The notes beneath the pieces were generated by a model. The model worked only from the letters and a program-made list of their open reading frames with translations, searched no databases and was not told the DNA's origin. This document shows, piece after piece, positions 3,255-27,291 of a stretch of DNA of 37,641 nt (position 1 is the stretch's first letter; each line of letters starts with the position of its first letter). The DNA comes from Candidatus Accumulibacter contiguus. GTDB lineage: Bacteria; Pseudomonadota; Gammaproteobacteria; Burkholderiales; Rhodocyclaceae. The stretch spans positions 1 to 37,641 of the forward strand of contig NZ_SPMX01000021.1 of NCBI RefSeq assembly GCF_012940005.1, written 5' to 3'. Position numbers and translations under genes: made by a program.

Positions 3255-3266
3255 AGCGGCTACCAA

Positions 3267-4751
3267 TTATTGGATCTTGCTGAGGGCGACGTGACGCAGC
3301 AGCTCATTGACCGAGCTGTGCATGACTTCAGTAAAGGGTTGGGGATAGAGACCCATGCCCAGCGCGCCAATGGCGAAGAGGACGAAGATGAAAAACTCGC
3401 GTGCATTGATGTCGGTGAGTTCGGCGACGTGGTGATTGGCCACGGCACCAAACACCACGCGCTTGTACATCCACAGCGTATAGGCGGCGCCGACAATCAT
3501 CGTCGAGGCAGCGGCGAAAGCCACCCAGAAATGGTGATCGACGGCAGCGAGGATGACCATGAACTCGCCAACAAAGCCCGAGGTGGCCGGCAGACCGGCG
3601 TTGGCCATCGCAAAAAGCATGAAGAATGCGGCAAACTTGGGCATCTTGTTGACCACACCGCCGTAATCCGCGATCTGTCGCGAATGCGCCCGATCGTACA
3701 TGACACCGATCGAGAAGAACATCGCACCCGACACAAAACCGTGCGAGATCATCTGCACCAGTGCGCCTTCGATACCCAGGGCGCTGAAGATGAAGAAACC
3801 AAGGGTCACGAAACCCATGTGTGCGATCGAGGAATACGCGACGAGTTTCTTCATGTCCTCCTGAGCAAGAGCAACGAAGCCGATGTAGATGATGGCGATC
3901 AACGATAGCGCAATGACCAGTCCGCCGAGAGCATGTGAAGCATCCGGGGTGATCGGCAGCGAGAAACGGAGAAAACCATACGCGCCGAGTTTCAGGGCGA
4001 TCGCCGCCAGCACGATCGATCCACCCGTCGGCGCCTCGACGTGCGCGTCGGGCAACCACGTGTGCACCGGCCACATCGGTACCTTGACCGCAAACGCCAC
4101 CAGGAAGGCCAGGAACAGCCAGGTCTGCGCGGTCATGCCGATCGGCAACTGGTGCCAGTCGAGAATCGAGAAACTGCCGCCGGATGCGATGAACAGGTAC
4201 AGCAGCGCGATCAGGAAGAGCAGCGAACCGAAGAGGGTAAAGAGGAAGAACTTGAATGCCGCGTACACCCGTTTCGGGCCACCCCAGATGCCGATGATCA
4301 GGTACAGAGGGATCAGCGAGGCTTCGAAGAACACGTAGAACAGCAGGCCATCGAGTGCCGAAAAGATGCCGTTCAATAAACCGGACATGATCAGGAAACC
4401 CGCGTTGTACTGCGCCACCTTGTTGTCGATGACCTGCCAGCCGGCGAGGACGACAGTCACCGTGATGAAGCTGTTGAGGATGACAAAAAGCATCGAGATC
4501 CCGTCAACACCAAGATGGTAGTTCACATTGAAACGCGGAATCCAGGTCTTGAGTTCGACGAACTGCATCGCCGGCGTGTGCATGTCAAAACCGGTATACA
4601 GCGGAATCGTCACCAACAGGCCTGCGAGAGCACCCATTAGCGACAGCATCCGGGCCAGCGGTGCATTGCGATCGGAGCCCGTCGCCAGGACAATCAAACC
4701 GGCGAGGATCGGAATCCAGATGGCAAGAGAGAGAAGCGGCGTGCCTGACAT
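3267..4751 (-). CDS. nuoM: NADH-quinone oxidoreductase subunit M
   Basis: NuoM is the central antiporter-like proton-pumping subunit of complex I. It has 494 residues and about 14 membrane helices. The functional Glu of helix 5 is visible in FYVFFEASLIPLYL (Glu143). The helix 7 Lys is in AVKVPMWPVHTWLPDAHVEA (Lys223), the position equivalent to the key lysine of the family. LKLGAYGFLRF and KKLVAYSSIAHMGFVTLG are further signatures. The start MSGTPLLSLAIW fits the family. It lies 23 bases after nuoL and 12 before nuoN, in operon order. Confidence 0.96.
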   Translation of the reverse strand: MSGTPLLSLAIWIPILAGLIVLATGSDRNAPLARMLSLMGALAGLLVTIPLYTGFDMHTPAMQFVELKTWIPRFNVNYHLGVDGISMLFVILNSFITVTVVLAGWQVIDNKVAQYNAGFLIMSGLLNGIFSALDGLLFYVFFEASLIPLYLIIGIWGGPKRVYAAFKFFLFTLFGSLLFLIALLYLFIASGGSFSILDWHQLPIGMTAQTWLFLAFLVAFAVKVPMWPVHTWLPDAHVEAPTGGSIVLAAIALKLGAYGFLRFSLPITPDASHALGGLVIALSLIAIIYIGFVALAQEDMKKLVAYSSIAHMGFVTLGFFIFSALGIEGALVQMISHGFVSGAMFFSIGVMYDRAHSRQIADYGGVVNKMPKFAAFFMLFAMANAGLPATSGFVGEFMVILAAVDHHFWVAFAAASTMIVGAAYTLWMYKRVVFGAVANHHVAELTDINAREFFIFVLFAIGALGMGLYPQPFTEVMHSSVNELLRHVALSKIQ

Positions 4752-4774
4752 ATCGTTCCCAGTCTTTCTCTAGC

Positions 4775-6862
4775 TCAGGCGCGCGTGACCCACAGGGTCA
4801 TCAAGATGAACACGCCGATAATCATCGTAAAAGCGTAGTGGTAAATGTGACCCGTCTGGAACAGACGTAGCAGGGTCGCAAACCAGCCTACGAGGCGTAC
4901 AGAACCATTGACGATGATGCCGTCGATCAGGCCAGCGTCGCCACCCTTCCAGAGGCCTCGGCCGAGAAGGCGTGCGCCACCGGCAAAGATCACGTCGTTG
5001 AACTTGTCAAAGTAATACTTGTTGTCAAGCAGGGTGTACAGAAATCCACAACGGTCCTTGATGGTTTCCGGAATGTCCGGGCGCTTCATGTACAGAAACC
5101 AGGCCAGCGCCACGCCGAGGAAAGCCAGCCAGAAAACCAGCGTGGTGACCGCGTGTGTCGCCATGGCGAAAGCGCCGTGGAAGTGATGCGCAAGCTCCTC
5201 TACGACCGGATGCGCCTCGACATCGACAAAAATTGCGCTCTTGAAGTAGTCGCCAAAAAGCATCGGCTCGATCGCGATGTAGCCGATGACCACCGATGGG
5301 ATCGCCAGCAGGATCAGGGGCAAGGTCACCACCCAGGGTGTCTCGTGCGGCTTCTGACCCGGGGCAAGGCCATGGTGTTCGGCATGCGCGTCATCCGCCG
5401 GATGGGCGTGATCGGCATCTGCCAAATGATCGTCGTGGGCCGCATGATGAGCTGCTTTGCCGTGCGTGGCATGATCCTCATGTGCTGCCTTGCCAAAGCG
5501 CTCCTGGCCATGAAAGACCAGGAAATACATGCGGAAAGAGTAGAAAGCGGTGACGAAAACCCCGGCCAGGACGCAAAAATGGGCAAAACCGGCGCCGGGG
5601 ATGTGTGCCAGGGCAACCGCTTCGATGATCGAGTCCTTGGAGTAGAAACCGGCAAAAAAGGGCGTTCCGATCAGCGCCAGAGAGCCGATCAAAGAGGTAA
5701 TCCAGGTGATCGGCATATACTTGCGCAGGCCACCCATATTGCGGATGTCCTGATCGTGGTGCATGCCGATGATCACCGAACCAGCAGCGAGGAACAACAG
5801 TGCCTTGAAGAAGGCGTGCGTCATCAGGTGGAAGATCGCCACCGAATAGGCCGAGGCGCCAAGGGCGACGGTCATGTAGCCGAGCTGGGACAGCGTCGAA
5901 TAGGCGACGACGCGTTTGATGTCATTCTGGATGATGCCGAGGAAGCCCATGAACAGTGCCGTGACCGAACCGATGACGATGACAAAGGAGAGTGCCGTAT
6001 CGGAAAGCTCGAACAGTGGCGACATGCGCGCAACCATGAAGATGCCCGCAGTCACCATCGTCGCGGCATGGATCAGCGCGGAGATCGGTGTCGGGCCCTC
6101 CATCGAGTCGGGCAGCCAGACATGCAGTGGAACCTGCGCCGATTTGCCCATCGCACCAATGAACAACAGGATGCAGATCGCCGTCATCAACGCGACACCC
6201 TCGCCTTCGCCAAACAATACGATGCTGGTATGGGAGGCCACTTCCGGCGCCTTGGCAAAAACGGCAGCGTAATCGAGCGTACCAAAGTGGGCAAGCACCA
6301 GACCAATGCCCAGGATGAAGCCGAAGTCACCGACACGGTTGACCAGGAACGCTTTCAGGTTGGCGAAGATCGCCGTCGGCCGGGTATACCAGAAACCGAT
6401 CAGCAGATAGGAAACCAGACCGACGGCCTCCCAGCCAAAGAAGAGTTGCATGAAGTTGTTGCTCATCACGAGCATCAACATCGAGAACGTAAATAGGGCA
6501 ATGTAGCTGAAGAAACGATTGTAGCCAGGATCGTCCTGCATGTAGCCGATGGTGTAGATATGCACCATCAGCGAAACGAAGGTGACGACCAGCATCATGG
6601 TGACCGTCAGTTGATCGATCAGGAATCCTACTTCGAAACGATAGTCGCCAGACGTCAGCCACTGGTACACCGGGCCGTTGTAGGTATTGCCGGCCATCAC
6701 GTCCTTGAAGATCACGTACGATGCGATGCAGGCGATCGCCACCCCGCCAGTGGTCACGGTGTGCGCCACCCAGCGCGGGAGCACGCGGCAGAACAAGCCG
6801 GCAATGATGGCACCAAGCAACGGTGCCAGAGGAACCAGCAGGTAGAGCTTTTGCATTTCCAT
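4775..6862 (-). CDS. nuoL: NADH-quinone oxidoreductase subunit L
   Basis: NuoL is the distal antiporter-like subunit of complex I, with a long lateral helix at its C-terminus. At 695 residues it is longer than the E. coli protein of about 613. The extra length includes a His/Asp/Ala-rich loop at about residues 452-507 (4 codons in 10 are His or Asp), placed between membrane helices. Key residues are present: Glu145 in FFGWEAVGLVSYLLIG and Lys240 in GAMGKSAQVPLHVWLPD. The start ATG is one base beyond the nuoK stop, so translation is probably coupled. The His-rich loop could bind metal ions, but this is inference. Confidence 0.96.
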   Translation of the reverse strand: MEMQKLYLLVPLAPLLGAIIAGLFCRVLPRWVAHTVTTGGVAIACIASYVIFKDVMAGNTYNGPVYQWLTSGDYRFEVGFLIDQLTVTMMLVVTFVSLMVHIYTIGYMQDDPGYNRFFSYIALFTFSMLMLVMSNNFMQLFFGWEAVGLVSYLLIGFWYTRPTAIFANLKAFLVNRVGDFGFILGIGLVLAHFGTLDYAAVFAKAPEVASHTSIVLFGEGEGVALMTAICILLFIGAMGKSAQVPLHVWLPDSMEGPTPISALIHAATMVTAGIFMVARMSPLFELSDTALSFVIVIGSVTALFMGFLGIIQNDIKRVVAYSTLSQLGYMTVALGASAYSVAIFHLMTHAFFKALLFLAAGSVIIGMHHDQDIRNMGGLRKYMPITWITSLIGSLALIGTPFFAGFYSKDSIIEAVALAHIPGAGFAHFCVLAGVFVTAFYSFRMYFLVFHGQERFGKAAHEDHATHGKAAHHAAHDDHLADADHAHPADDAHAEHHGLAPGQKPHETPWVVTLPLILLAIPSVVIGYIAIEPMLFGDYFKSAIFVDVEAHPVVEELAHHFHGAFAMATHAVTTLVFWLAFLGVALAWFLYMKRPDIPETIKDRCGFLYTLLDNKYYFDKFNDVIFAGGARLLGRGLWKGGDAGLIDGIIVNGSVRLVGWFATLLRLFQTGHIYHYAFTMIIGVFILMTLWVTRA

Positions 6863-6863
6863 G

Positions 6864-7169
6864 TCAACCCTTCAGGCTGTCCAGATCATCCACGTGGATG
6901 GTCTTGAGATTGCGGAACAGCACCACGAGAATCGCCAGCCCGATTGCCGACTCGGCTGCGGCGACGGTCAGGATGAAGAACACGAAGACCTGTCCGGCAA
7001 GATCCTGCAAGTAGTGGGAAAAAGCGATGAAATTCATGTTCACTGCCAGCAGCATCAACTCGATCGACATCAATATGATGATCAGGTTCTTGCGGTTGAG
7101 GAAGATGCCGACGACGCTGATCGCGAACAGGATCGCGCCCAGGATCAAAAAATGGGACAGTGTAAGCAA
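6864..7169 (-). CDS. nuoK: NADH-quinone oxidoreductase subunit K
   Basis: NuoK is a small three-helix membrane subunit of complex I. The family length of about 101 residues is reached only with a TTG start at 7169 ([14 protein letters not shown] follows the start). This TTG is preceded by GGAGG at the right distance, whereas the next in-frame start lies 40 codons upstream inside the nuoJ-nuoK gap. The two membrane Glu residues of the family are seen in [12 protein letters not shown] and [11 protein letters not shown]. It lies 79 bases after nuoJ, the largest gap in the operon, and one base before nuoL. Confidence 0.94.
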
Positions 7170-7194
7170 GGTGCCTCCCTGATTCCTTCTGCAT

Positions 7195-7217
7195 GGGGTG
7201 GAAGGTTTCGCCACCCC
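7195..7217 (-). other. Intercistronic hairpin between nuoJ and nuoK
   Basis: GGGGTGG (7195-7201) and CCACCCC (7211-7217) are perfect 7-bp partners around a nine-base loop. The hairpin lies in the only sizeable gap of the nuo operon. There is no T-tract on the minus strand after it, so it looks more like an mRNA processing or stability element than a terminator. Confidence 0.55.
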
Positions 7218-7248
7218 TCTTATTGTCAGTCTTGGTGCTGCCGTCTGT

Positions 7249-7851
7249 TCAGTCGCGCTTCTCGGCAGGCATCTGCAGTACGCGCACACGATCCCTGGCT
7301 TTCACGAAAACCTGCCGTGATGCATCGACCGACTTGTTCTTGCGCTTCTCGCGCTGTGTCAGCGCCACCGCCGCGACAATCCCGACGAGCAGAATGACCG
7401 AGGCCAGTTCGAAGGGATACATGTATTCGGTGAACATCAGCCGCCCGACGGACTGGACGTTGCTGGTATCAGCGCCTGCCTGCGCGACGTTGCTCTCGAA
7501 CAGCCCGAGGTAATTGCCCCCCAGAACCAACGCCATTTCAGCGACCATCAGCAAGGCAATGATCGCTCCCAGCGGCAGGTAACTCCAGAATCCTTCACGC
7601 AGGCGGTCGAGGTTGATGTCGAGCATCATGACCACAAACAGGAAGAGCACCATCACTGCGCCGACATAGACCAGCACCAGGGCGATTGCCAGAAACTCGG
7701 CCTGCAACAGCATCCACACGCCACTCGCGGAAAAGAACGCGAGCACCAGATAGAGCGCGGCGTGCACCGGATTGCGTGCAGTGATCACGCGCAGCCCGGC
7801 AAACACCAGAATCGCCGAGAGAAAGTAAAAAACGAAGGTCTTGAATTCCAT
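7249..7851 (-). CDS. nuoJ: NADH-quinone oxidoreductase subunit J
   Basis: NuoJ is a five-helix membrane subunit of complex I. The 200-residue protein begins [20 protein letters not shown] and contains [14 protein letters not shown] and the conserved helix 3 motif [19 protein letters not shown] with its pi-bulge region. The Lys/Arg-rich C-terminal tail ([15 protein letters not shown]) is soluble, as usual in the family. It follows nuoI after 12 bases and precedes nuoK by 79 bases. Confidence 0.95.
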
Positions 7852-7863
7852 CGCGTCGGCCTG

Positions 7864-8352
7864 TCAGCGGTATTTCGAGTCGAGTTCGCGGTCTTCGGCG
7901 ATCTGCGCTTCGTAGCGGTCACCATTGGCCAGCAACATCGGCTTGGTGTAGTAGAGGTCGCCCCGTGTCTCCCCGTGGTACTCGAAGATCCGTGTCTCGA
8001 CGATGGCATCGACCGGACAGGCCTCTTCGCAAAAGCCGCAGAAAATGCACTTCGTCAGGTCAATGTCGTAACGGGTGGTCCGCCGCGAACCATCCTCACG
8101 CTGCTCCGACTCGATGGTAATGGCCATCGCCGGACAAACCGCCTCGCACAACTTGCACGCAATGCACCGCTCCTCACCGTTCGGATAGCGTCGCAGCGCG
8201 TGCAGGCCGCGGAAGCGGAAGCTCTGTGGTGTCTTTTCTTCGGGGTACTGCACGGTGATCTTGCGGGCAAACATGTAGCGCCCGGTCACTGACAAGCCCT
8301 TCAACAGTTCCTTGAGCAGGAGGCTGTTGAAAATTTCCTTCATTGAACCCAT
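7864..8352 (-). CDS. nuoI: NADH-quinone oxidoreductase subunit I (two [4Fe-4S] clusters)
   Basis: NuoI is the peripheral-arm ferredoxin subunit that passes electrons to NuoB. In 162 residues it has two Cx2Cx2Cx3CP motifs, [12 protein letters not shown] (Cys63, 66, 69, 73) and [12 protein letters not shown] (Cys102, 105, 108, 112), for clusters N6a and N6b. The ATG at 8352 has a GAGAGG ribosome site at about six bases. The alternative ATG three codons later would lose only MGS. It sits 10 bases after nuoH and 12 before nuoJ. Confidence 0.96.
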
Positions 8353-8362
8353 GACTAGCCTC

Positions 8363-9415
8363 TCACTTCCAGATGTTCAAGGGCGACATCATCCAGGTGC
8401 CGACCACAACCAGCCATATCAGGCACAGCGGGATGAACACTTTCCAGCCCAGACGCATGATCTGGTCGTAGCGATAGCGAGGGAAGGTAGCGCGAACCCA
8501 GAGGAAGACGAACAGAACCGCCGAGATTTTCAGGAATAGCCACAGAATCCCATCCGGCAGGAAGCCCACCGGCGACAGCCAGCCGCCGAGAAACAGGATT
8601 GCGGTCAGCGTTGACACCAGGATCATGTTGGCATATTCGGCAAGGAAGAACACCGCAAAAGCCATTCCCGAATATTCAACGTGGAAGCCAACGATCTCGG
8701 ATTCGCCTTCCGCCAGATCGAATGGCGCACGGTTGGTTTCGGCGACGACCGAGGTCAGATAAACAACAAACATCGGCAGCAGCGGCAACCAGTTCCACGA
8801 CAGGAATCCCAGCCCCCGATCAACGAAGTAGCCCCGCCCCTGGCCGTTCACAATGTCGCCAAGGTTGAGGCTGTTCGAAACCATCAACACCACCACCAGC
8901 GCCAGCCCCATGGCAACTTCGTACGAAATCATCTGGGCTGCGGAGCGCATGCCCCCGAGAAAGGCATATTTCGAATTCGAAGCCCAGCCCGAAAGAATGA
9001 TTCCATAGACGCCGATCGAGGTGATTGACATGATGTAGAGCAGGCTGGCGTTGACGTTCGCCAGGACCAGCGTGTCGTTGAACGGAACCACCGCCCAGGC
9101 GGCCAGCGCCGGCGCAAAGGCGAACATCGGCGCGAGCAGAAAGACGCTCTTGTCCGATCCGGTCGGGATGACCACTTCCTTCAACAACAGCTTCAGGCCG
9201 TCGGCGATCGGCTGAATCAGCCCCCAGGGACCGACACGGTTCGGGCCGATACGCACCTGCATCCAGCCGATGACCTTGCGTTCCCAGAAAGTCAGATAGG
9301 CAACGCAGAGCAGCAATGGCGCGATGATCAGAACGATCTTGAGCAGAACCCAGATCAGCGGAAATACCGACCCGAAAATCCCTTGCAACAATCCCTGCAG
9401 CGCATCGATCATCAT
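8363..9415 (-). CDS. nuoH: NADH-quinone oxidoreductase subunit H
   Basis: NuoH anchors the peripheral arm of complex I and forms much of the quinone-binding chamber. The 350-residue polytopic protein contains the signatures [31 protein letters not shown] and [20 protein letters not shown], the last holding the acidic loop close to the quinone site. The start overlaps the nuoG stop by four bases (ATGA), which favours ATG 9415, though a second ATG follows at once. It is the usual length. Confidence 0.96.
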
Positions 9416-11739
9416 GCACGCTCCACGTTGATCGCACCGAACATTTCACCCAGCGCTGCCGTCGTCACATGCGCTGCAGAGATGCGAACACAGCCCGCAG
9501 GTACCGTTTCGTCGGCCCTGGCGGTGAGAACAGCCTCGCAGCTCCCCTGGCTGATACGTACCGGAGCCCCGTCGGTGACGACCAGCCTCGCCAGCGTTGC
9601 CGCATTCATGCGCGCCGTCGGAGCCACCGCATCACGCGTCTTCTGGAGTGACGGAGCGCGACGAGCAATCGGGTCGGCAAAATAGATCGGCACATCGGCA
9701 ATGCGCTGCAACTCGCCAGTCGTCTCCGTCAGTGACAGGGAAACGCCGCTGACGCCGTTGTCCAGGCCGGCAACGAATGCGGCTCCTGCGGGAACCATTT
9801 CGTCTCGCACATGCTCACTCGAATTCTGGTCGAAACCGGGTAGTGCCAGCAGATTGCCCAGTACGCGCAGCACTTTCCAGCCGGGGCGCGCATCGCCCAG
9901 GGGGCGAACGACACCGGTGAAACTCTGGATACGGCCTTCGGTGTTTACGAAGGACCCCGAAGTCTCGGTAAAGGGCGTGATCGGCAGCAGGACGTCGGCG
10001 TAGTCCCTTGCCGCGCCGTCGCTGAATGGCGTCAACATCACGACCAGTGCGGCGTCCTTGAGTGCGGCCATGGCCTGTTGCGGGTCGTGACAATCGAGTT
10101 CTGGTTCAAGGCCGAGCAGGATATAGGCCTTGCGGGGTTGAGCGAACATTTCGTAAGCGTTGAGCGCTGTCGGCAAAGCCTTCGCGACATACCCACCAAC
10201 GCTATTGGCGGCCTCTCCGATGAAGCCACAGGTGGCACCTGTCAGCCGTGCGAGTTCGACGGCCAGGGCGTGCAGTTGCGCTGCCTGTGGATGTTGCTCG
10301 GCTGCATTGCCAAGGAAAACCGCCCGCTTCTCGCCTTCGAGCAGGCTCCTGGCGATCGCCTGGCTGGTCGCACCAGGGTCGACCGACTCGAGTCCGGCTG
10401 GCACCAGCTCGCCTTTCAATTGTGCCGCCGCCTTGACAATCATAGCCATTGCCAGCGGCAGTTCAGCGGGAGAAACGGTCAGCTGCGCGTGCAAATTGAT
10501 CAGCGAATCGTCGCCACTGGACGAAAGCAGGCTGACCTTGCCCCATTTCTTGGCCAACTGACGCAAACGCTGAGCGAATAGAGGATGGTCCTTGCGCAGG
10601 AAGCTGCCCACCACCAATGCTGCGTCGAGATCCTTGATTTCGGAGAGCTTGAGACCGAGCCAGGGAATGCCACCAAGCTTGCCATCGGCCGAAAAGTCAC
10701 GACGCCGCGGACGAAAGTCGACGCTGCCCGATCCGAGAGCACGCGTCAGCTTCTGCAGCAGGTAGAGTTCTTCGAGCGTCGCCTGCGGCGAGGCCAGCGC
10801 TGCCAGCGCTGCTGCGCCGCTATTGCCGACGACATCCTTGAGGGCATGCGAAACGTAATCGAGGGCGACATTCCAATCGACTTCGCGCAGCGCCCCATCG
10901 ACACGAATCATCGGCTTGCCGAGCCTGGCCGGAGAATTCAGCGCTTCGTAGGAAAAGCGTTCCTTGTCGGAAATCCAGCACTCATTGACGTCTTCGTTGT
11001 CACGCGGCAGAACGCGCATCACGACGTTGTTCTTGACCTGCACGGTCAGGTTGGCGCCAATGCTGTCGTGCGGACTGATCGACCGGCGCCGCGACAACTC
11101 CCAGCTCCGTGCCGAGTAGCGAAAAGGCCGGGAGGTCAGAGCACCCACCGGGCACAGGTCGATCATGTTTCCGGAAAGTTCCGAATCGACCGAGCGACCA
11201 ACAAAAGTCGTGATCTCCGAGTGCATGTTGCGACTGGCCATGCCGAGTTCCATCACGCCGGCAATTTCCTGCCCGAAGCGAACGCAGCGAGTGCAATGAA
11301 TGCAGCGTGCCATTTCCTGCATCGAGATCAGAGGACCGACATCCTTGTGGAAAACGACCCGTTTGTCTTCCTGAAAACGCGATGCGCCGCCGCCGTAACC
11401 GACCGCCAGGTCCTGGAGTTGGCACTCACCACCCTGGTCGCAGATCGGGCAATCCAGCGGGTGATTGATCAGCAGGAACTCCATCACGCCTTTCTGCGCC
11501 TTGACCGCCAGTTCGGAATGAGTGAACACCTTCATGCCGTTGGTGACCGGTGTCGCGCAGGCAGGCAGGGGCTTCGGCGCCTTCTCTACCTGCACCAGAC
11601 ACATCCGGCAATTGGCAGCGATCGAGAGCTTCTTGTGATAGCAGAAATGCGGGATATAGGCCCCCAACTGCTGTGCAGCATCCATGATGGTACTGCCATC
11701 AGGCACCTGTGCCATCTTGCCGTCGATTTCGATTTCCAT
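9412..11739 (-). CDS. nuoG: NADH-quinone oxidoreductase subunit G
   Basis: NuoG is the largest peripheral subunit (775 residues) and carries Fe-S clusters of the electron path. The N-terminal [2Fe-2S] ferredoxin domain has Cys33, Cys44, Cys47 and Cys61 ([10 protein letters not shown] region). It is followed by the His/Cys cluster segment [18 protein letters not shown] and by [10 protein letters not shown] plus CPVGALTS for [4Fe-4S] clusters. The rest is a molybdopterin-oxidoreductase-like fold with no evident cofactor role. The protein starts 11 bases after nuoF and overlaps nuoH by four bases. Length is ordinary for betaproteobacteria. Confidence 0.96.
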
Positions 11740-11750
11740 CGTCTCGTACC

Positions 11751-13079
11751 CTAAACCGTTGCCATAAAGAAGCCACTGCCGGCACGCTGCACATCAACGG
11801 GCACGAGGCACTTCTTGTGTTCGATGTGGTACGAGAACTCGTCGCGATAATGTTTGATAAAGCTCTGTACCGGCATCGATGCGGCATCGCCAAGCGCGCA
11901 AATGGTGCGGCCCATGATGTTGGTGGTCACACTCTCGAGCAGTTCGAGATCATCGGGACGACCCTTGCCGCTCTCTATTCGATGCACCACCTTGTAAAGC
12001 CAGCTGGTTCCTTCACGGCATGGCGTGCACTGGCCACAGGATTCCTCGTAGTAGAAGAACGAGAGCCGCTCGAGCGCCTTCACCATGCAGGTCGTCTCGT
12101 CCATGACGATGACCGCGCCCGAGCCCAGCATCGAGCCCGCCTTGCTGATACCATCGTAGTCCATGGTGGCATTCATCATCATCGCCGCGGGAACGACCGG
12201 CGCCGAGGAACCACCCGGAATACAGGCCTTCAATTTCCGACCACCACGCATGCCGCCAGCCATTTCGAGCAGCGTGGCGAACGGTGTCCCAAGGGGAATT
12301 TCGTAGTTCCCTGGCCGGTTTACGTGACCCGAAACCGAGAATAGCTTGGTCCCGCCGTTATTCGGCTTACCGGCTTCGAGATAGGCCTCGCCGCCAAGAT
12401 TCATGATGTAAGGGATCGAGGCAAAGGTTTCGGTATTGTTGATCGTGGTCGGTTTACCATAAAGGCCGAATGAGGCAGGGAAAGGCGGCTTGAAGCGCGG
12501 CTGCCCCTTCTTGCCTTCGATCGATTCGAGCAGCGCAGTTTCTTCGCCGCAGATATAGGCACCGTAACCGTGATGCGCGAAGAGTTCAAAATTGAAACCC
12601 GAGCCCAGTAGGTCGGAGCCGAGAAAGCCAGCGGCTCGAGCTTCATCGAGGGCTTCCTCGAAGCGCTCGTAGAGTTCCCAGACTTCGCCATGGATGTAGT
12701 TGTAACCCCGTGCGGCGCCCATCGCGTAGCCGGCAATGACCATCCCCTCGATTACCGAATGCGGGTTGTAGCGCAGGATGTCGCGATCCTTGAAAGTACC
12801 GGGTTCGCCTTCATCGGAATTGCATACCACGTACTTATCCCCGGGAAAGGAACGTGGCATGAAACTCCATTTGAGGCCGGTCGGAAATCCGGCGCCGCCG
12901 CGACCCCGCAGAACCGACTTCTTGACCTCGTTGATGACCTCGCCCTGGGGCATCTTTTCTTCGAGAACTCGCCGTAGCGCCGAATAACCGCCACGCTTGA
13001 CGTAATCCGCCAGGCGCCAGGCCTTGTCGCCGTCCAGACCGACGCTGAGCATTGGGTTGAGTGCACCGAGAATCGCCAT
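11751..13079 (-). CDS. nuoF: NADH-quinone oxidoreductase subunit F (NADH, FMN, [4Fe-4S])
   Basis: NuoF binds NADH and FMN and starts electron transfer in complex I. In 442 residues it shows the FMN/NADH glycine-rich motif [13 protein letters not shown], the second glycine-rich region [18 protein letters not shown], and the cluster ligands [12 protein letters not shown] plus [11 protein letters not shown] 13079 overlaps the nuoE stop by one base (TAATG) and gives the typical [10 protein letters not shown] start. An upstream in-frame extension of 18 codons would run into nuoE and is rejected. Confidence 0.96.
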
Positions 13080-13552
13080 TACTTGAGCTCCGCCAGCAGT
13101 TTGTCGATTTGCTCGGGATTCATCCAGCTGCACATGCGACGGTTATTGACGATCATCACCGGCGCGTCGCCACAGGCACCCATGCACTCACTCTCCTTGA
13201 GCGTGATCAGTCCGTCGGGAGTCGTCTCGTTGTAGCCGATTCCCAATTTTTTCTGCAGGTATTCGCCGGCATCGACTCCGCCGGTGAGCATGCATGGCAA
13301 GTTGGTACACACCGACACCTTATACTTGCCAACCGGCTTGAGGTCGTACATGTTGTAGAAGGTCGCCACCTCGTAGGCGGCGATCGGCGGCATGCCAAGG
13401 TAGTTGGCAACAGCCTCGATGGCTTCGCTGGAGAGCCAGCCCAGCTGTTCCTGCGCGATGGCGAGCGCCGCCATGACCGCTGACTGTTTCTGGTCAGCCG
13501 GGTACTTGGCAATTTCGCGATCAATTCTCTTGAGGGATTCTGAAGTCAACAT
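13079..13552 (-). CDS. nuoE: NADH-quinone oxidoreductase subunit E ([2Fe-2S])
   Basis: NuoE is the thioredoxin-fold [2Fe-2S] subunit that pairs with NuoF in the NADH dehydrogenase module. The four ligands are visible as Cys82 and Cys87 (VCTNLPC) and Cys123 and Cys127 ([11 protein letters not shown]) in a protein of 157 residues. It overlaps nuoD by one base and nuoF by one base, so translation of D, E and F is tightly coupled. Confidence 0.96.
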
Positions 13553-14805
13553 CAGCGGTCAATCTCGCCAAAAACAACGTCCTGGGAACCAATGATCGTC
13601 ACCACGTCGGCCAGCATATGGCCGCGCACCATCTCATCCATTGCCGACAGGTGCACATAACCCGGAGGACGGATCTTCAAGCGATAGGGCTTGTTGGCAC
13701 CGTCGGAAATCACGTAGATGCCGAACTCTCCCTTGGGGTGCTCGACCGCTGAATAGACTTCACCCTCCGGCACATGCATGCCTTCGGTACAGAGCTTGAA
13801 GTGGTGGATCAATTCTTCCATATTGGACTTCATCGCTTCGCGATCCGGCGGCGCAACCTTGTGATTGTCGGACATCACCGGACCCGGGTTCTGCCGTAAC
13901 CAGTCGATACACTGTTTGACGATGCGGTTGGACTGGCGCATTTCTTCCATGCGGACCAGATAGCGATCGTAGGAATCACCGGTGACGCCTACCGGGATGT
14001 CGAAATCCATCCGGTCATAGACTTCGTAGGGCTGTTTCTTGCGCAGATCCCAGGCAATACCGGACCCACGCAACATCGGCCCGGTAAAGCCGCGCTGCAG
14101 CGCCCGCTCCGGTGAAACGATGCCGACATTCACCAGACGCTGTTTCCAGATGCGGTTATCCGTGAGCAGCGTTTCGTACTCGTCGAGCAACTTCGGAAAG
14201 CGACTCACGAAATCGTCGAGAAAGTCCAGCAGGGAGCCGCTGCGCACCTCGTTGAAGGGCTTGATCTGGGCGGCGCTCTTCCACTTCGACTCCTGATACT
14301 GTGCCATGCGATCAGGCAGGTCGCGGTAAACACCGCCCGGCCGATAGTAGGCGGCATGCATGCGTGCGCCCGAAACCGCCTCGTAGGCATCAATCAGGTC
14401 TTCACGCTCCCGGAAGGCATAAAGCACCATGGTCATTGCACCGACGTCGAGGCCGTGACAGCCGACCCAGAGCAGATGATTGAGGATACGGGTGATCTCG
14501 TCGAACATTACCCGGATGTATTGGGCACGGATCGGCACCTCGACATTCAACAGCCTTTCGATCGCCATGCAGTAGGCATGCTCGTTACACATCATCGACA
14601 TGTAGTCGAGGCGATCCATGTAGGGCACCGACTGGATCCAGGTCTTGTTCTCGGCAAGCTTTTCGGTAGCGCGGTGGAGCAAGCCAATATGCGGATCGGC
14701 ACGCATCACCACTTCACCGTCCAACTCAAGCACCATCCGCAGAACACCGTGCGCCGCCGGATGCTGCGGCCCGAAATTCAGGGTAAAGTTGCGCAGTTCA
14801 GGCAT
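13552..14805 (-). CDS. nuoD: NADH-quinone oxidoreductase subunit D
   Basis: NuoD is the 49-kDa-type subunit, related to NiFe hydrogenase large subunits, that forms the quinone reaction chamber with NuoB. The 417-residue protein has [11 protein letters not shown] at residues 13-23, the hairpin region that contacts quinone, and [13 protein letters not shown]. It ends with the conserved [21 protein letters not shown]-like tail. nuoC and nuoD are separate genes here, overlapping by eight bases, unlike the fused nuoCD of E. coli. Confidence 0.96.
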
Positions 14806-15403
14806 TGTCGACGTTCCCGTAGGTCGCTTCGCGAACGATCCGCGGCGTGATCTCGCGCGGCTCGATGGTCACCGGCTGATAGATGACCCGCTGCTGCTCC
14901 GGGTCGTAGCGCATTTCGACATAGCCTGAAATCGGGAAATCCTTGCGGAACGGATGTCCGATAAAGCCATAGTCGGTGAGGATGCGGCGCAAATCTTCGT
15001 GCCCTGGGAAAACAATTCCAAACAGGTCGAAAGCCTCGCGCTCAAACCAGTTGACACTGTTCCAGACCGAGGTAACCGAAGGCAGAGAGGGGAAATCGTC
15101 ATCGGGCGCAAAGCAGCGAACGCGCAGCCGCCAGTTCCTGCTGATCGACAAGAGCTGACTGACCGCAGCGAAACGCCGCCCCTCTCGCTGCACGTTGCCA
15201 TAGACCGAATAGTCGACGCCACAGAGGTCGATCAATTCTTCGAAACACAGTTCCGGCTCGTCGTGAAGAGTCTGCATCACCACCAGGTAGTCGGCGGCAT
15301 CGACCTCGATGGTCACTTCACCGAGCGCCACCTTCAGGGATTTGACTCGATCACCGAGATGTTTCTGCAAATTCTGGCTAAGCGCTTCCAGCGTGGCGGA
15401 CAT
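14798..15403 (-). CDS. nuoC: NADH-quinone oxidoreductase subunit C
   Basis: NuoC is the 30-kDa-type structural subunit of the peripheral arm. The 201-residue protein has the family signature [21 protein letters not shown] and then [16 protein letters not shown]. It lies 23 bases after nuoB and overlaps nuoD by eight bases. Nothing is unusual. Confidence 0.95.
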
Positions 15404-16338: not shown

Positions 16339-16423
16339 TGGTGCCGACGATGAGACTCGAACTCATACGACCTAAGTCACTACCCCCTCAAGATAGCGTG
16401 TATACCAATTTCACCACGTCGGC
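16339..16423 (-). tRNA. tRNA-Leu (anticodon GAG)
   Basis: The minus strand folds as a class II tRNA of 85 bases with encoded CCA. The acceptor GCCGACG pairs with CGTCGGC. The anticodon stem CTATC/GGTAG encloses the loop TTGAGGG with GAG at positions 34-36, which reads CUU and CUC. A long variable arm follows, then the T arm ATGAG-TTCGAGT-CTCAT. It lies between secG and nuoA and is probably excised from a common transcript with them. Confidence 0.95.
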
Positions 16424-21488: not shown

Positions 21489-22538
21489 TCAGGCTGAGTC
21501 GCCCGGCAAGCGCGCCGCCCGAAGTTCGTGGTTCAACCACAGCAGCAAGCCGAGGACGACCATCGCCCCGCCTTGATGCGCAGCCCCCAAGCCCACCGGA
21601 ACCGCCAGCAGCAGGGTGGCGATGCCCAGCGCGATCTGGATGAACACCCCTCCCAACAACAGCGTTGCCGCCAGGCGAGCCGAAGCGGAAACGGCCGCAT
21701 TCCTGATCTTCCACCAGAACCAGGGCACCAGAAAGGCCAGCAGCCAGGCGCCCAGGCGATGGTCAAACTGGACCAGCGCCATGTTGTTGAAGAAATTCAA
21801 ATACCAGGGATCGATGAGAAAGCTTTCCGGCGGCAGCACGTGCCCGTTCATCAGTGGAAAGCTGTTGTAGGCCTTGCCGGCGCGAATGCCGGCGACAAAG
21901 CCGCCGCTGATGACCATATAGCCGACCAGGATCGTCAACCAGAAACCGGTCCGCTGCAGCCCTTGTAGCGCAACATCACGACTGACCCGGCTACGCTCGG
22001 TGAGCAGACCCAGCGCCACCCAGAACATCGACAGAAAAATCAGGAAAGCCAGCGACAAATGCGCGGTCAGTCGATAGTGACTGACGCGCGGGTCGTCGAC
22101 CAGGCCGCTCTTGACCATGTACCAGCCCATCGCTCCCTGCAGGCCCCCGAGCACGAAGATCCCCAGCAGCTTCGGGATCAGCGGCGGTGCAATCCTGCCT
22201 CGCAACCAGAAGTAGAGGAACGGCAGCAGGAAGACCATCCCGATCAGACGTCCGAGAACGCGGTGCCAGTACTCCCAATAGAAAATGCTCTTGAACTCTT
22301 CGAGCTTCATCTGGTGGTTGACCTGCTGATATTCCGGGGTCTTCTTGTATTTCTCGAAGGCCTCATCCCATTCGGTCGGATTGAGCGGTGGGATGATGCC
22401 GACAATCGGCTGCCACTCGACGATCGACAGGCCGGAATGGGTCAGACGCGTGACGCCACCGACCACCAGAATGGCGAAAACCATGGCACTGCAAATCAGC
22501 AGCCAGAGCGCAACTTGTCGGCGAGCAACTTGATCCAT
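21489..22538 (-). CDS. ctaA: Heme A synthase (COX15/CtaA)
   Basis: CtaA oxidises the methyl group of heme O to the formyl group of heme A at the cytoplasmic membrane. The 349-residue polytopic protein matches the proteobacterial/COX15 class. It has GGVTRLTHSGLSIVEWQPI near the N-terminus, the E-x-x-x-H element in FYWEYWHRVLGRLIG, GGLQGAMGWYMVKSGL and HYRLTAHLSLAF. FDHRLGAWLLAF and AHQGGAMVVLGL supply C-terminal heme-ligand histidines. It diverges from the heme-copper enzyme operon across a 289-base region. Its presence shows that some enzyme in the cell uses heme A, not necessarily the neighbouring one. Confidence 0.93.
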   Translation of the reverse strand: MDQVARRQVALWLLICSAMVFAILVVGGVTRLTHSGLSIVEWQPIVGIIPPLNPTEWDEAFEKYKKTPEYQQVNHQMKLEEFKSIFYWEYWHRVLGRLIGMVFLLPFLYFWLRGRIAPPLIPKLLGIFVLGGLQGAMGWYMVKSGLVDDPRVSHYRLTAHLSLAFLIFLSMFWVALGLLTERSRVSRDVALQGLQRTGFWLTILVGYMVISGGFVAGIRAGKAYNSFPLMNGHVLPPESFLIDPWYLNFFNNMALVQFDHRLGAWLLAFLVPWFWWKIRNAAVSASARLAATLLLGGVFIQIALGIATLLLAVPVGLGAAHQGGAMVVLGLLLWLNHELRAARLPGDSA

Positions 22539-22827: not shown

Positions 22828-22977
22828 ATGGCCGTCAACAACGATGATGACGTTCCGTTCATGCAGAAGCTGCTGGACAACCACTTCCTGCTGCTGTTTC
22901 TCGGCGTGGCGTCACCAGGTCTGCTCTACATCCTGTGGGGCATCATCGACATCATGAATACGCCGCTCGCCAAGTAA
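22828..22977 (+). CDS. 49-residue single-helix membrane protein, candidate small oxidase/NOR subunit
   Basis: The ATG at 22828 has GGAGG at seven bases spacing. The peptide has an acidic N-terminus (MAVNNDDDVPFMQKLLDNH) and one hydrophobic helix (FLLLFLGVASPGLLYILWGIIDIM). It is 46 bases before the CuA subunit gene in the same operon. Small one-helix subunits (subunit IIa) occur in ba3-type heme-copper enzymes, so that role is the natural inference. I recognise no family with certainty. An in-frame ATG five codons upstream overlaps the ribosome site and is rejected. Confidence 0.75.
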   Translation: MAVNNDDDVPFMQKLLDNHFLLLFLGVASPGLLYILWGIIDIMNTPLAK

Positions 22978-23007
22978 GCCAATCAGTCACTTCAGGGAGA
23001 GTCAATT

Positions 23008-23547
23008 ATGAGTGCAATTCTGCCGCCGTCGGATCGGCTCTGGTGGAAGCAACCCATCGACAAGGTCGAATGGGCATGGATCGCGATCGCTTTCGTCTGG
23101 GGGATGATCATGTTCGCGATGATGATTTACTGGCATGTTTACGGCAAGCAGAACTTGTCCAATGAAGCCTATAAAACCACCCCCGAGATGTTCGCCGCCA
23201 AGGCCGAGAAGTTCATCGCCGAAAACACCGTCCGTACCGAAACCGATCAGAACATCCCCGTGGTCAAGGTACCCGCTGGCGGTGACGGTTACCTGATCGC
23301 CCGGCTGTGGGCATGGTATCCGATCCTTGAACTGGAGAAGGGGCAGACCTACAAGATCCACCTCTCGTCAATGGATTACAACCATGGCTTCTCGCTGCAG
23401 CCCGTCAATATCAACATCCAGGTCATCCCGGGCTACGAGCACGTCGTCAAGATGACGCCGACCAAGGAAGGCACTTACGCCATCGTCTGCAACGAATACT
23501 GCGGCATCGGTCACCATTCGATGCTCGGCCGTATCTACGTGAAATAA
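23008..23547 (+). CDS. CuA-containing subunit II of a B-type heme-copper enzyme (oxidase or NorS-like)
   Basis: The 179-residue protein has one N-terminal membrane helix (about residues 22-45) and a periplasmic cupredoxin domain. All CuA ligands are present: His126 in DYNHGFSL, and Cys161, Glu163, Cys165, His169 and Met172 in CNEYCGIGHHSM. It would accept electrons from a periplasmic donor such as cytochrome c and pass them to the catalytic subunit. The short one-helix form resembles subunit II of ba3 enzymes rather than the two-helix subunit II of aa3 oxidases. In the norSY-senC clusters of ammonia oxidisers a similar subunit accompanies an NO reductase. GGGAGAG precedes the ATG. The catalytic subunit gene follows after 16 bases. 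Confidence 0.9.
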   Translation: MSAILPPSDRLWWKQPIDKVEWAWIAIAFVWGMIMFAMMIYWHVYGKQNLSNEAYKTTPEMFAAKAEKFIAENTVRTETDQNIPVVKVPAGGDGYLIARLWAWYPILELEKGQTYKIHLSSMDYNHGFSLQPVNINIQVIPGYEHVVKMTPTKEGTYAIVCNEYCGIGHHSMLGRIYVK

Positions 23548-23563
23548 GGGAGGAACAAACAAG

Positions 23564-25258
23564 ATGGCAACGACCTACCGTACCTGTCCCGTCTCCGGAC
23601 TGCAATTCGAGGACCAGGCCGAGAAACTGATGCGCTGGAACGCCGTCGCCGGCGTCCTCTGGCTGCTCGTCGGTGGCATCACCGCCCTGCTGGTCATCCT
23701 CACCCGCTGGCCGGCGATCAAGCTGCTGCCGGCCGACCAGTTCTACCTGATTCTCACTGCCCACGGCATCGACATGCTGATCCTGTGGATCCTGTTCTTC
23801 GAAATGGCCGTTCTCTACTTTGCCTCATCGACGCTGCTGCGCTGCCGGCTGGCAACGCCGAAGATCGCCTGGCTCGGTTTCTGGCTGATGGTCGTCGGCG
23901 GCATCATGGCCAACGTCGCCATCTTCCAGGGCGAGTCGAGCGTGATGTTCACCTCTTATGTGCCGATGCAGGCCGCCCCCCACTTCTACCTGGGGATCAT
24001 CCTGGTCGCTGTCGGCGCGCTCCTCGGCGTCGCCGTCTTCTTCGGCACACTGGTCGTCGCCAAGAAGGACAAGACCTATCAGGGCTCACTGCCGCTGGTG
24101 ACTTTCGGTGCGCTCACCGCAGCGATCATCGCCACCTTCACGATTCTCGCTGGCGCCGGCATCCTGCTGCCGACCTTCCTGTGGTCGGTCGGACTGATCA
24201 AGGAAATCGACGCGCAGCTGTATCGCATGGTGTGGTGGGGTCTGGGACACTCATCGCAGCAGATCAACGTCGCTGCGCACGTTTCCGTCTGGTACCTGAC
24301 CGCCGCCGTGATCTTCGGAGCCAAGCCCTTGTCCGAGAAGGTGTCGCGCTTCGCCTTCCTGCTCTACATCCTGTTCCTGCAGCTCGCCAGCGCACACCAC
24401 CTGCTCTCCGACCCCGGCATGAGCGCCGAATGGAAGGTGCTCAATACCTCTTACTTCATGTACTTTGCGGTGATGGCATCGATGATCCACGGCTTTACGG
24501 TTCCTGGAGCGATCGAAGCGGCACAGCGGCGCAAAGGTTACACCAACGGCCTGTTCGAATGGCTGCGCAAAGCGCCCTGGGGCAACCCGGTGTTCTCCGG
24601 CATGTTCATCTCGCTGGTCAGCTTCGGTTTTCTCGGCGGCATCTCGGGGGTCGTGCTCGGTACCGAGCAGATCAACATGCTGATGCACAACACCTTCTAT
24701 GTTCCGGGCCACTTCCATACCACGGTGGTGACCGGCACGACGCTGGCATTCATGTCGATCACCTATCTGCTGGTGCCGGTCCTGTTCCGGCGCGAAATGA
24801 TCCTGCCGAAGCTTTGCCAGATCCAGCCTTACCTGTTCGGCATCAGCATGTCGGTACTCGGACTGGTGATGATGGGCGCCGGAACGCTCGGCGTCTCCCG
24901 CCGGCACTGGGACATGGCTTTCTCGGGCGCACCGTTCCAGTATGAATGGCCGGGTGCCGCCTACCTGATGATGGGTCTGACCGGGATCTTCGGCGTCATC
25001 GCCGTGATTGGCGGTGGGCTGTGGATCCTGCTCGTCGTCGGTTCGCTGCTGTTCGGCAAGAAACTCGACGGCGGCAAGGTATCCGACCGGCCGACGCCGA
25101 TCCCGGGTAACACCCAGGCCGCTTCGGCGGTGGCACACGGTAGCGACCACGTCCCGGTTCCGGGCACCGTCGTCCTGGCGCTGCTGCTGTTCGTCTGCTT
25201 CGTCCTTTACTACTTCGTCAACTGGAAGTACCTTTCCGAAGTCTGGTTGCTCAGCTGA
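23564..25258 (+). CDS. B-type heme-copper catalytic subunit lacking the cross-link tyrosine (candidate CuA-dependent NO reductase, NorY-like)
   Basis: This 564-residue polytopic protein keeps the ligands of the superfamily. These are His67 (TAHGIDM), His229 (GLGHSS), His278-His279 (ASAHHLLSDPG), and His383 and His385 (HNTFYVPGHFH). The HH-x4-DPG and HNT-x3-PGHFH motifs are those of B-family (ba3-like) enzymes. In oxygen reductases helix 6 reads GHPxVY and the Tyr is bonded to the CuB histidine. Here it reads GHSSQQIN, with Gln233 at the Tyr position. cNOR has a Glu at the equivalent i+4 position and lacks the Tyr. With a CuA subunit, a SenC gene and an FNR-type box, NO reduction is the better hypothesis. 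Ordinary databases would probably label it cytochrome c oxidase subunit I. GGGAGGA precedes the ATG. Confidence 0.9.
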   Translation: MATTYRTCPVSGLQFEDQAEKLMRWNAVAGVLWLLVGGITALLVILTRWPAIKLLPADQFYLILTAHGIDMLILWILFFEMAVLYFASSTLLRCRLATPKIAWLGFWLMVVGGIMANVAIFQGESSVMFTSYVPMQAAPHFYLGIILVAVGALLGVAVFFGTLVVAKKDKTYQGSLPLVTFGALTAAIIATFTILAGAGILLPTFLWSVGLIKEIDAQLYRMVWWGLGHSSQQINVAAHVSVWYLTAAVIFGAKPLSEKVSRFAFLLYILFLQLASAHHLLSDPGMSAEWKVLNTSYFMYFAVMASMIHGFTVPGAIEAAQRRKGYTNGLFEWLRKAPWGNPVFSGMFISLVSFGFLGGISGVVLGTEQINMLMHNTFYVPGHFHTTVVTGTTLAFMSITYLLVPVLFRREMILPKLCQIQPYLFGISMSVLGLVMMGAGTLGVSRRHWDMAFSGAPFQYEWPGAAYLMMGLTGIFGVIAVIGGGLWILLVVGSLLFGKKLDGGKVSDRPTPIPGNTQAASAVAHGSDHVPVPGTVVLALLLFVCFVLYYFVNWKYLSEVWLLS

Positions 25259-25268
25259 TCTGGCACCT

Positions 25269-25291
25269 CCCCCACACCATCGGCGTGGGGG
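25269..25291 (+). other. Strong hairpin after the catalytic subunit gene
   Basis: CCCCCACACC and GGCGTGGGGG pair over ten positions with one A-C mismatch around the loop ATC. No T-tract follows. It starts 11 bases after the stop codon and could protect the upstream mRNA or reduce read-through into ctaB. Confidence 0.55.
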
Positions 25292-25389
25292 CCTGCCTCA
25301 ATCGGTCCTGGTCACCACAGGCCCGATTCAAGCAGGTCCACCGCACAGGCCACCCGATCATCACCTTGACCGCTACCCTATCGACACCC

Positions 25390-26280
25390 ATGCCATCCAT
25401 CCGCGCATCGAACAGCACCTTTCCCATCCGCGCCATTCTCGGCGTGTTCAAGCTGCGCATCGGTGTCGTCATCACCTTCACCGCCCTTGCCGGTCTGGCG
25501 GTCAGCTCCGGCCCCAGCCTGAGTCTGCTGCAGCTACTCGTGCTGACCCTGTCGGTACTGCTTTCCTCGGCCAGCGCCGGTGCCTTCAACCAGTATTACG
25601 AACACGACAGCGACCTGCTGATGTCGCGAACCAGCAAGCGACCCTTCGTCACCGGTGAACTTCGGCACGAACCGGTCTGGTTGCTGGTCATCGCCGCCCT
25701 GATGACGCTGTCGGTCGGCGCCGCCTGGATCGCCCTGAATGCCTGGTCGGCGCTGTTTGTCTTCCTCGGCGCTTTCTTCTACGCCATCGTTTACACGGTT
25801 TGGCTAAAACGGCGTACCTGGCTGAACATCGTCTTCGGCGGGCTGGCCGGGAGTTGGGCGGTGCTCGCCGGCGCCACCGCCGCCAATCCGCAGCTCGGCG
25901 TCGTCCCGCTGGCGCTGGCACTGGTTCTCTTTCTATGGACGCCACCGCATTTCTGGAGTCTGGCGATTGCTTTTCGGGACGACTATGCCGCCGCCGGCGT
26001 GCCGATGCTGCCAGTCGTCGTCGGCGATCAGCAAGCGGCGAACACGATTTTCCTCAGCACTCTGGCGCTGGTCGCAGCCAGCCTGTTGCCACTGCTCTTC
26101 GGCCTCGGCGCGATCTATGGTGTCGGCGCCATCGTTGGCGGCTTCCTGTTCATTCAGAAGGCCTGGCGACTGACTCGCGACCCCTGCCGCAAGTCGGCGA
26201 TGATCTGCTTTCACGCCTCGCTGATCCAGCTGACACTAGTACTGCTCGGGGCCATCCTCGACGCGCAGTCCGGTTTCTGA
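25390..26280 (+). CDS. ctaB: Protoheme IX farnesyltransferase (heme O synthase)
   Basis: CtaB/CyoE attaches a farnesyl group to heme B to make heme O. The 296-residue UbiA-type membrane protein has the prenyl-diphosphate site N-x3-E-x-D-x-D-x4-R-T-x2-RP (NQYYEHDSDLLMSRTSKRP, residues 67-85). It also has YTVWLKRRTWLNIVFGGLAG and WTPPHFWSLAI. ATG 25390 is chosen by family length; no good ribosome site is visible. Upstream in-frame starts at 25285 and near 25367 lie in the gap after the hairpin and add no homology. It probably belongs to the operon of the heme-copper subunits. Confidence 0.92.
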   Translation: MPSIRASNSTFPIRAILGVFKLRIGVVITFTALAGLAVSSGPSLSLLQLLVLTLSVLLSSASAGAFNQYYEHDSDLLMSRTSKRPFVTGELRHEPVWLLVIAALMTLSVGAAWIALNAWSALFVFLGAFFYAIVYTVWLKRRTWLNIVFGGLAGSWAVLAGATAANPQLGVVPLALALVLFLWTPPHFWSLAIAFRDDYAAAGVPMLPVVVGDQQAANTIFLSTLALVAASLLPLLFGLGAIYGVGAIVGGFLFIQKAWRLTRDPCRKSAMICFHASLIQLTLVLLGAILDAQSGF

Positions 26281-26300
26281 TTCGTCCATTGCCCATTCCG

Positions 26301-27291
26301 GTGAATAGTCGCTTCTCTCACGCGCTACTTGCATCCATCTTCCTGCTCGCTGCGCCACCGCTCGTCGCCGACGACGCAGCGGCAGGGAAACCCAAACTCA
26401 CCGCTCGCCCACAGGGAGTCAACAGCGGCCTGGTACTGACGGCCCTCGACGAAAAAAGCTGCTTTCGAATTCTCGCAAAGCGCCATCGGCAAAGCGGTCG
26501 GAGACTTCGTACTCCTCGATCGCCAGGGCCAGCCGGTCGAACTGTCGCGTTACCGAGGCAAGCCGCTGCTGGTCAACTTCATCTACACCGCCTGCTTCCA
26601 GGTCTGCCCGACGACCACCCGCAACCTGCAGAAAGCCGTCGAGAATACGGTCAGCGTCATGGGTGCCGATCGCTTCAACATGATCAGCATCGGTTTCAAT
26701 CAGCCGTTCGACTCGCCGGCCGCGTTGAAGGACTTCGCCAGACAATACGGCATCCGTCTGCCCAACTGGGAATTCCTGAGCCCTGCCCCGGCGATCGTCA
26801 GCGATCTGACACGCAATTTCGGTTTCAGCTTTGTCGCGACTGCGGCTGGCTTCGATCACCTCAACCAGGTGACCATGGTCGATGCCGACGGGATGATCGT
26901 CCGCCAGGTCTATGGCGAAAAGTTTACTGCCGAGGACATCGCCGAACCACTCAAGATTCTGATCACACGCTCGGCGATCCCACCGGAAGTCGGCACTCTC
27001 AATGAACTCATGCAGCGCGTCAGAATCATCTGCTCGATCTACGATCCCGTGACCGGCAGATATCGGACCAACTACTCCTTGTATTTCCAGATTGCCGGCT
27101 TCATCACCTTTGTCGGCTTCATGATCTATCTGTCGATCAATTTCTGGAAGAACCGGCGCCGCCATGAAGAAAAAAACGTCCTGAATAGCCGTGCTTCGCG
27201 CAACGGCGCTTCTGGATGGACAAGCCGTTATAGCGCACATCCTCCGAATCAGCAGAGGGCAGAATTTTGGTTTGCACGCACTTCTTGTTAG
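26301..27291 (+). CDS. SCO1/SenC-family copper chaperone, with an apparent frameshift
   Basis: SCO/SenC proteins insert copper into the CuA or active site of heme-copper enzymes. The first frame starts at GTG 26301 with a signal peptide (HALLASIFLLAAPPLVADD) and runs to LTALDEK. A run of six A residues (26452-26457) then breaks it. Dropping one A gives LTALDEKAAFEFSQSAIG and joins the second frame. That frame carries the thioredoxin-like domain with the copper pair CFQVC in IYTACFQVCPTT and the His in GFDHLNQV. An unusual C-terminal membrane helix (FITFVGFMIYLSINFW) follows. A seven-A run at 27170-27176 may be another extra base: one fewer gives HEEKTS and a stop at about 27184, removing an odd tail. 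It lies 20 bases after ctaB. Confidence 0.85.

Follow-up and report, generated by a model that had tools for sequence, protein, structure and literature searches.

The question raised by this locus is whether its heme-copper operon encodes an oxygen reductase or an NO reductase. Such enzymes are called oxidases both in plasmid records and in PMC6446978, and a mislabelling of this kind had been predicted in the first-pass annotation of this DNA, which read the enzyme as an NO reductase. The operon lies in a window of 37,641 nucleotides, which is the whole stretch of DNA analysed, from a Candidatus Accumulibacter assembly of 5.02 Mb that is 98.7% complete. Most of the nearest named relatives are genomes of this genus, with subunit I identities of 91-99%. 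The results suggest, with a probability of about 0.8, that the operon encodes an NO reductase of the eNOR type, the closeness to the characterised eNOR, which reportedly came from Rhodothermus marinus, being judged second-hand from published descriptions. The eNOR family is already known, and the operon would be a further member of it.

The features of the locus are listed in Table 1.

Table 1. Features of the operon and its flank, with positions in the window
Feature	Positions	Strand	Basis and remarks
ctaA, heme A synthase	21489-22538	-	PF02628, E 8.4e-111; divergent from the operon
FNR/CRP-type box TTGACCTGAATCAA	22692-22705	+	between the operon and the divergent ctaA
49-aa single-span protein, first ORF of the operon	22828-22977	+	tblastn; probable small subunit
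Subunit II	23008-23547	+	PF00116; CuA site and Glu21
Subunit I, catalytic, 564 aa	23564-25258	+	PF00115, E 4.4e-64; residues; tree; Gln233 replacing the cross-linked Tyr
ctaB, heme O synthase	25390-26280	+	TIGR01473 over cut-off
SCO/SenC-type copper chaperone gene	26301-27291	+	two frames in the assembly; A-runs at 26452-26457 and 27170-27176

The first-pass annotation had placed the operon at 22828-27291, with ctaB and a SCO/SenC gene downstream of subunit I. Both genes are present and the gene order is retained, with corrections: a conserved 49-aa ORF opens the operon, and the SCO gene departs from its relatives in frame and in end coordinate. In most relatives, and in a Thermomicrobium plasmid, tblastn places the 49-aa ORF just 5' of subunit II, and a 54-aa reading of the same ORF gives zero matches in Pfam and NCBIfam. 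The start of ctaB was picked by homology, its reading frame being open from 25285, and ctaA has the same placement in many relatives. The SCO gene is split in this assembly, with its start in one frame and the CxxxC part in another, and in 78 of 78 testable relatives it has an open frame upstream. The end at 27291 is 36 codons past the stop of the 14 relatives listed. Both anomalies, the frame split and the overrun of the usual stop, fall at A-runs. These anomalies probably reflect an assembly error, with a genuine gene defect as a possible cause. Upstream of the operon, minus-strand genes that resemble those of respiratory complex I, as judged by eye from their translations, occupy positions 1770-15403, and a tRNA-Leu(GAG) is located at 16339-16423.

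The pattern TTGAYNNNNRTCAA, which describes the FNR/CRP-type box, has a single match in the whole window, as compared with 0.17 expected. The box score is 9 or 10 of 10 in 33/74 upstream regions versus 0.3% of simple shuffles, and at least 8 in 68/74 versus 5.7%, the 74 regions being related to one another and hence not independent. The box in relatives is mostly located 76 to 168 bases 5' of the small ORF.

Subunit I has histidine at residues 67, 229, 278, 279, 383 and 385, which are the six superfamily positions, and glutamine at residue 233, the place of the oxygen-reductase tyrosine, exactly as had been claimed for it, and the alignment agrees. In a phmmer search against PDB sequences, Gln233 is opposite the helix-6 tyrosine of Thermus ba3 (GHPIVYF). 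The motif GHSSQQ[IV]N is present in 80/80 relatives of the genome scan, the Thermus and Thermomicrobium plasmid rows have GHGAQQVN, and two distant Pseudomonadota rows have AHSTQQ[VM]N. In a larger alignment, which was restricted before counting to rows longer than 480 residues, site 233 is Gln in 135 rows, Tyr in 12 B-family-like rows and in the organism's own aa3 row, Asn in two NorY-type rows, Gly in two cbb3 rows and Glu in three cNOR/qNOR rows, this Glu being the residue that had been ascribed to cNOR at the outset. Because the Gln group is defined in these counts by the Gln letter itself, the informative result is that the 34 Gln rows of the tree are on one side of a branch, as one clade with a support of 100/99. 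The possibility that Gln233 is a matter of chance or a sequencing error is ruled out by Gln in the 80 relatives and the 135 aligned rows. The original reading of the enzyme as an NO reductase, not an oxidase, appears to hold up, with the helix-6 tyrosine lost from this CuA-bearing, B-family-like enzyme and Gln present throughout the clade.

Glu80, Gln232, Asn235, Asn294, Tyr297 and His309 are also invariant in the 135 Gln rows; of these residues, Tyr297, on helix 8, is absent from Tyr-type relatives. The cross-linked tyrosine of cbb3 enzymes is taken to sit on helix 7, at a place that was read off the organism's own cbb3 sequence. All 135 Gln rows have Leu or Ile at this place (position 272). 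Of the tyrosines supplied from another helix, which the first-pass annotation had held to speak against an NO reductase, one at the cbb3 place is ruled out by this alignment, and the invariant Tyr297 would be a possible substitute. An AlphaFold model made from 25 close rows has a mean pLDDT of 67, with values below 50 at 279-296 and 360-381; it would support the fold only, the active-site loop being below 50 and distances such as Tyr297-CuB unusable. In Foldseek and in the phmmer search, ba3-type or kindred B-family oxidases rank first. His385, the second low-spin heme ligand, is replaced by Lys (GHFK) in all three Thermus thermophilus plasmid copies read (L114, L207 and L208), and the Thermomicrobium copy keeps His at this place.

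The residue at this site is described by family in excerpts of PMC8756737 as Asn in sNOR, Gln in eNOR, Asp in gNOR, Glu in cNOR/qNOR and Tyr in oxygen reductases. The same excerpts describe eNOR as an NO reductase of B-family origin, with the Gln mark and a cupredoxin subunit II just upstream, and their eNOR rows include one Rhodocyclaceae and one Thermus sequence. According to excerpts of PMC11388526 and PMC8879329, eNOR has been characterised as an NO reductase. The enzyme of this locus has Gln at the Tyr place and a CuA subunit II directly upstream, and it shares both with eNOR, together with K-type residues that are mostly kept; the ctaB, SCO and 49-aa ORF of its own branch are described here, and eNOR is compared by description only. 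Thermus thermophilus ba3 shares with it the fold, the six histidines, CuA and part of the K-type channel, but the Tyr of ba3 that is cross-linked to the CuB histidine, as in B-family oxygen reductases, is replaced by Gln233 and a channel Thr by His309, and Glu80, Asn294 and Tyr297 are gained. cNOR and qNOR share the expected reaction and a non-Tyr residue at the site, but this residue is Glu, and they are placed in the tree with cbb3, so that neither their Glu nor their C-family kinship is found here. cNOR and qNOR are not known to carry CuA. The Gln clade holds both Thermus and Rhodocyclaceae rows, and its sister is a long-branched group consisting of L111, L112 and L123 (97/93). The Tyr rows do not form a single clade, and hence the nearest Tyr kin of the Gln clade is unsure. 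The alignment rows of L111, L112 and L123 have Tyr at both active-site His places, and in the COX1-like protein of L111, which was read directly, two active-site histidines (HH pair and high-spin heme ligand) are Tyr.

The CuA site of subunit II, which had been claimed to be complete, indeed has His126, Cys161, Cys165, His169 and Met172. For each of these five side-chain ligands, 78 or 79 of the 79 aligned subunit II rows of the clade carry the same residue, and Glu21 is present in 78 of these rows, with one gap. The residues of the ba3 K-type channel, with the roles that they are assumed to have, were mapped onto subunits I and II. Tyr244 and Ser306 are present in 135/135 rows and Thr312 in 133/135 (two Ser). 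In all 135 rows, one Thr place is taken by His309 and one Tyr place by Val or Ile. A proton path through this altered K-type channel is plausible, a single proton channel being expected of an eNOR.

The best explanation combines the sequence, operon, clade and co-occurrence, which are observed, with a substrate, donor, heme type and proton path that are inferred. A c-type or blue-copper donor would pass electrons to CuA of subunit II, from which they would be transferred by way of the low-spin heme (His67/His385) to a high-spin heme-CuB site, at which His383 would be the heme ligand and His229, His278 and His279 the CuB ligands, and where two NO would be converted to N2O. With Gln233 instead of the cross-linked Tyr, the extra electron and proton for O2 splitting would be gone, and NO reduction needs two electrons only. 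Protons would be taken from the cytoplasm via Glu21 of subunit II and Thr312, His309, Ser306 and Tyr244 of subunit I. CtaB and CtaA would provide heme O/A and SCO would provide copper. In Accumulibacter, the enzyme would clear the NO produced by NirS.

The enzyme is present in 28/28 Accumulibacter genomes, in one full-length piece in 25 and in pieces in 3. A PF02239 match of more than 450 bits, taken as NirS, is present in 27/28, and the lower PF02239 matches are probably NirF and NirN. A canonical NOR is detected in 10/28 genomes, the same 10 being matched by the cNOR and by the qNOR query (E 1e-5), and a few of the genes are broken or incomplete. A NirS-class gene and the enzyme are present without a detected canonical NOR in 17/28, draft assemblies possibly concealing some. 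nosZ matches are found in 16/28 genomes, 13 of them above the cut-off, and a match is absent from the source genome in this search of the 28 genomes. The source genome has, at locus L173 (contig C103), genes resembling norC-norB-norQ-norD and hence a canonical NO reductase as well; NorB was confirmed by motif and searches, and norC, norQ and norD were judged by eye. The extra NO-reducing route that had been foreseen for the organism is thus consistent with its own genome, but in the 17 genomes the enzyme would be the sole NO reductase detected. Gln-type genes are present in 23/300 genomes of the order and 30/398 of the phylum in even samples. One Accumulibacter genome, G343 (contigs C13 and C3), has its copy as two pieces that overlap, together with a further copy that is more diverged and contains internal stops.

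In excerpts of the 2019 paper PMC6446978, ba3 (cbaAB) is given as an oxygen reductase of all Accumulibacter clades, few genomes are reported to carry norZ and none to carry norBC, and ba3 transcripts rise with oxygen alongside those of aa3 and nirS-2, with a smaller change than those of the other oxidases. One site per Accumulibacter genome matches subunit I at E 1e-30, fragments and the second copy of G343 aside, and this limit was reached by Tyr-type relatives elsewhere; the 'ba3' of the literature should therefore be the protein described here, and, judged by these matches, its transcripts should be those of this gene. UW-LDO-IC, the genome studied in PMC6446978, has the Gln form (locus L021). 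Of the 136 MAGs in the 2025 survey PMC12766714, 122 have nirS, 44 have norB and 6 have norC, which the survey describes as a bottleneck; the word 'oxidase' is absent from its main text. A whole-word literature search found no papers pairing 'Accumulibacter' with 'eNOR', a PNAS 2024 article on the families concerned, which may name the genus, being outside this search.

It is unlikely that the enzyme is a ba3-like oxygen reductase of the B family that operates without the helix-6 Tyr, or with a Tyr from elsewhere such as Tyr297 of helix 8. Its closest fold is ba3, Tyr297 is invariant in the clade, ctaA and ctaB adjoin the subunit genes, and the rise of transcripts with oxygen is as expected for an oxidase; against this, the helix-6 Tyr is missing from all 135 clade rows, the helix-7 place of cbb3 does not supply one, and NO reduction is reported for eNOR in the excerpts cited above. 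Far less probable still is an sNOR (NorSY) as in Nitrosomonas, to which the first-pass annotation had likened the operon. The sNOR of ammonia oxidisers has a like gene content, with a CuA subunit, a catalytic subunit and a SCO/SenC gene, and shares the annotation as an oxidase. AmoA-bearing genomes account for 8/300 in the order sample, and subunit I was used to search 26 genomes from the Nitrosomonadaceae-like family that surrounds one of these; a close relative is absent from these 26 genomes, and weak partial matches are found in two. Any COX1-family gene was sought in 8 of the 26, and two of these 8 (L151 and L152) have the order norS-norY-senC-orf1, which is that of the published NorSY cluster in excerpts of PMC4940428. 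The identity of the two clusters as NorSY is based on gene order and sequence, not names, and ctaB is absent from both. Their NorY has GHVVIN or GHVFIN, with Asn at the site instead of Gln, and is on a separate long branch; a joint clade of Gln and NorY rows is rejected by the AU test with p 0.011, long branches being involved. The alignment, tree and inspection of residue 233 that had been proposed as a check yield a consistent Gln but not a grouping with NorY, and the kinship with NorSY is not retained.

A third reading is a refinement of the eNOR explanation, not opposed to it. An eNOR may mainly hold NO low in the presence of oxygen instead of serving anoxic NO respiration, and this is a serious possibility, at somewhat less than even odds. 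A purely anoxic role is disfavoured because the 'ba3' transcripts rise with oxygen (excerpts of PMC6446978), as do those of nirS-2. An FNR/CRP-type box is located upstream of the operon, and eNOR is said to reduce NO under microoxic conditions in excerpts of PMC11388526; but the box is silent on the sign of control. More tentatively, a proton-coupled, oxygen-tolerant eNOR could be the universal and often sole NO sink of Accumulibacter, so that what the literature calls a 'ba3' oxygen reductase would conserve energy from NO with oxygen present, the site and the channel being rebuilt around Gln233, His309, Tyr297 and Glu80.

Accumulibacter drives the biological removal of phosphorus from wastewater, and the N2O that it gives off is a concern in practice. 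An eNOR could account for how this genus deals with self-made NO. In excerpts of the survey scoring norB and norC (PMC12766714), most MAGs are concluded to make NO with nirS and to lack the next step. Should the enzyme be an NO reductase, the step after nirS is present in each of the 28 genomes examined, the predicted end product is N2O where a nosZ match is lacking, the source genome included, and one of three presumed oxygen reductases leaves the models of microaerobic phosphorus removal. The same relabelling would extend to other Rhodocyclales and Burkholderiales found in the genome scan. The reinterpretation alters the reading of a well-studied environmental genus.

Neighbour genes in relatives were called with a codon-composition filter, because wrong-frame ORFs of high-GC DNA swamp plain clustering; this filter misses genes, recovering subunit I in 67/84 sources. 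Each of the three Thermus plasmid stretches that were read has genes close by for a multicopper oxidase, an Rrf2 regulator and a DUF542/ScdA_N protein. An annotated nitrite reductase is also present in one stretch and a cytochrome P460 in another, and the setting of these copies near the multicopper oxidase, Rrf2, DUF542/ScdA_N and nitrite reductase genes is in favour of the eNOR explanation. In 31/84 sources, the genes after the operon encode a cytochrome b with fused 4Fe-4S/FlpD domains, a protein of 172 aa and an orphan COX1-like protein (for example L060:12811-14223, L063:11718-15185 and L028:13872-15779), often with a further cytochrome b fused to ferredoxin reductase. These genes seem to encode an electron-transfer complex, as yet undescribed, that is linked to eNOR. 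The orphan COX1-like protein has the motifs GGGHxLQF and IPAHYHG and a single His at the place of the HH pair of oxidases, and the one such protein tested gives zero matches in NCBIfam. A member of the source genome, L172:8362-10488, is on another contig and is fused to a thioredoxin-like domain.
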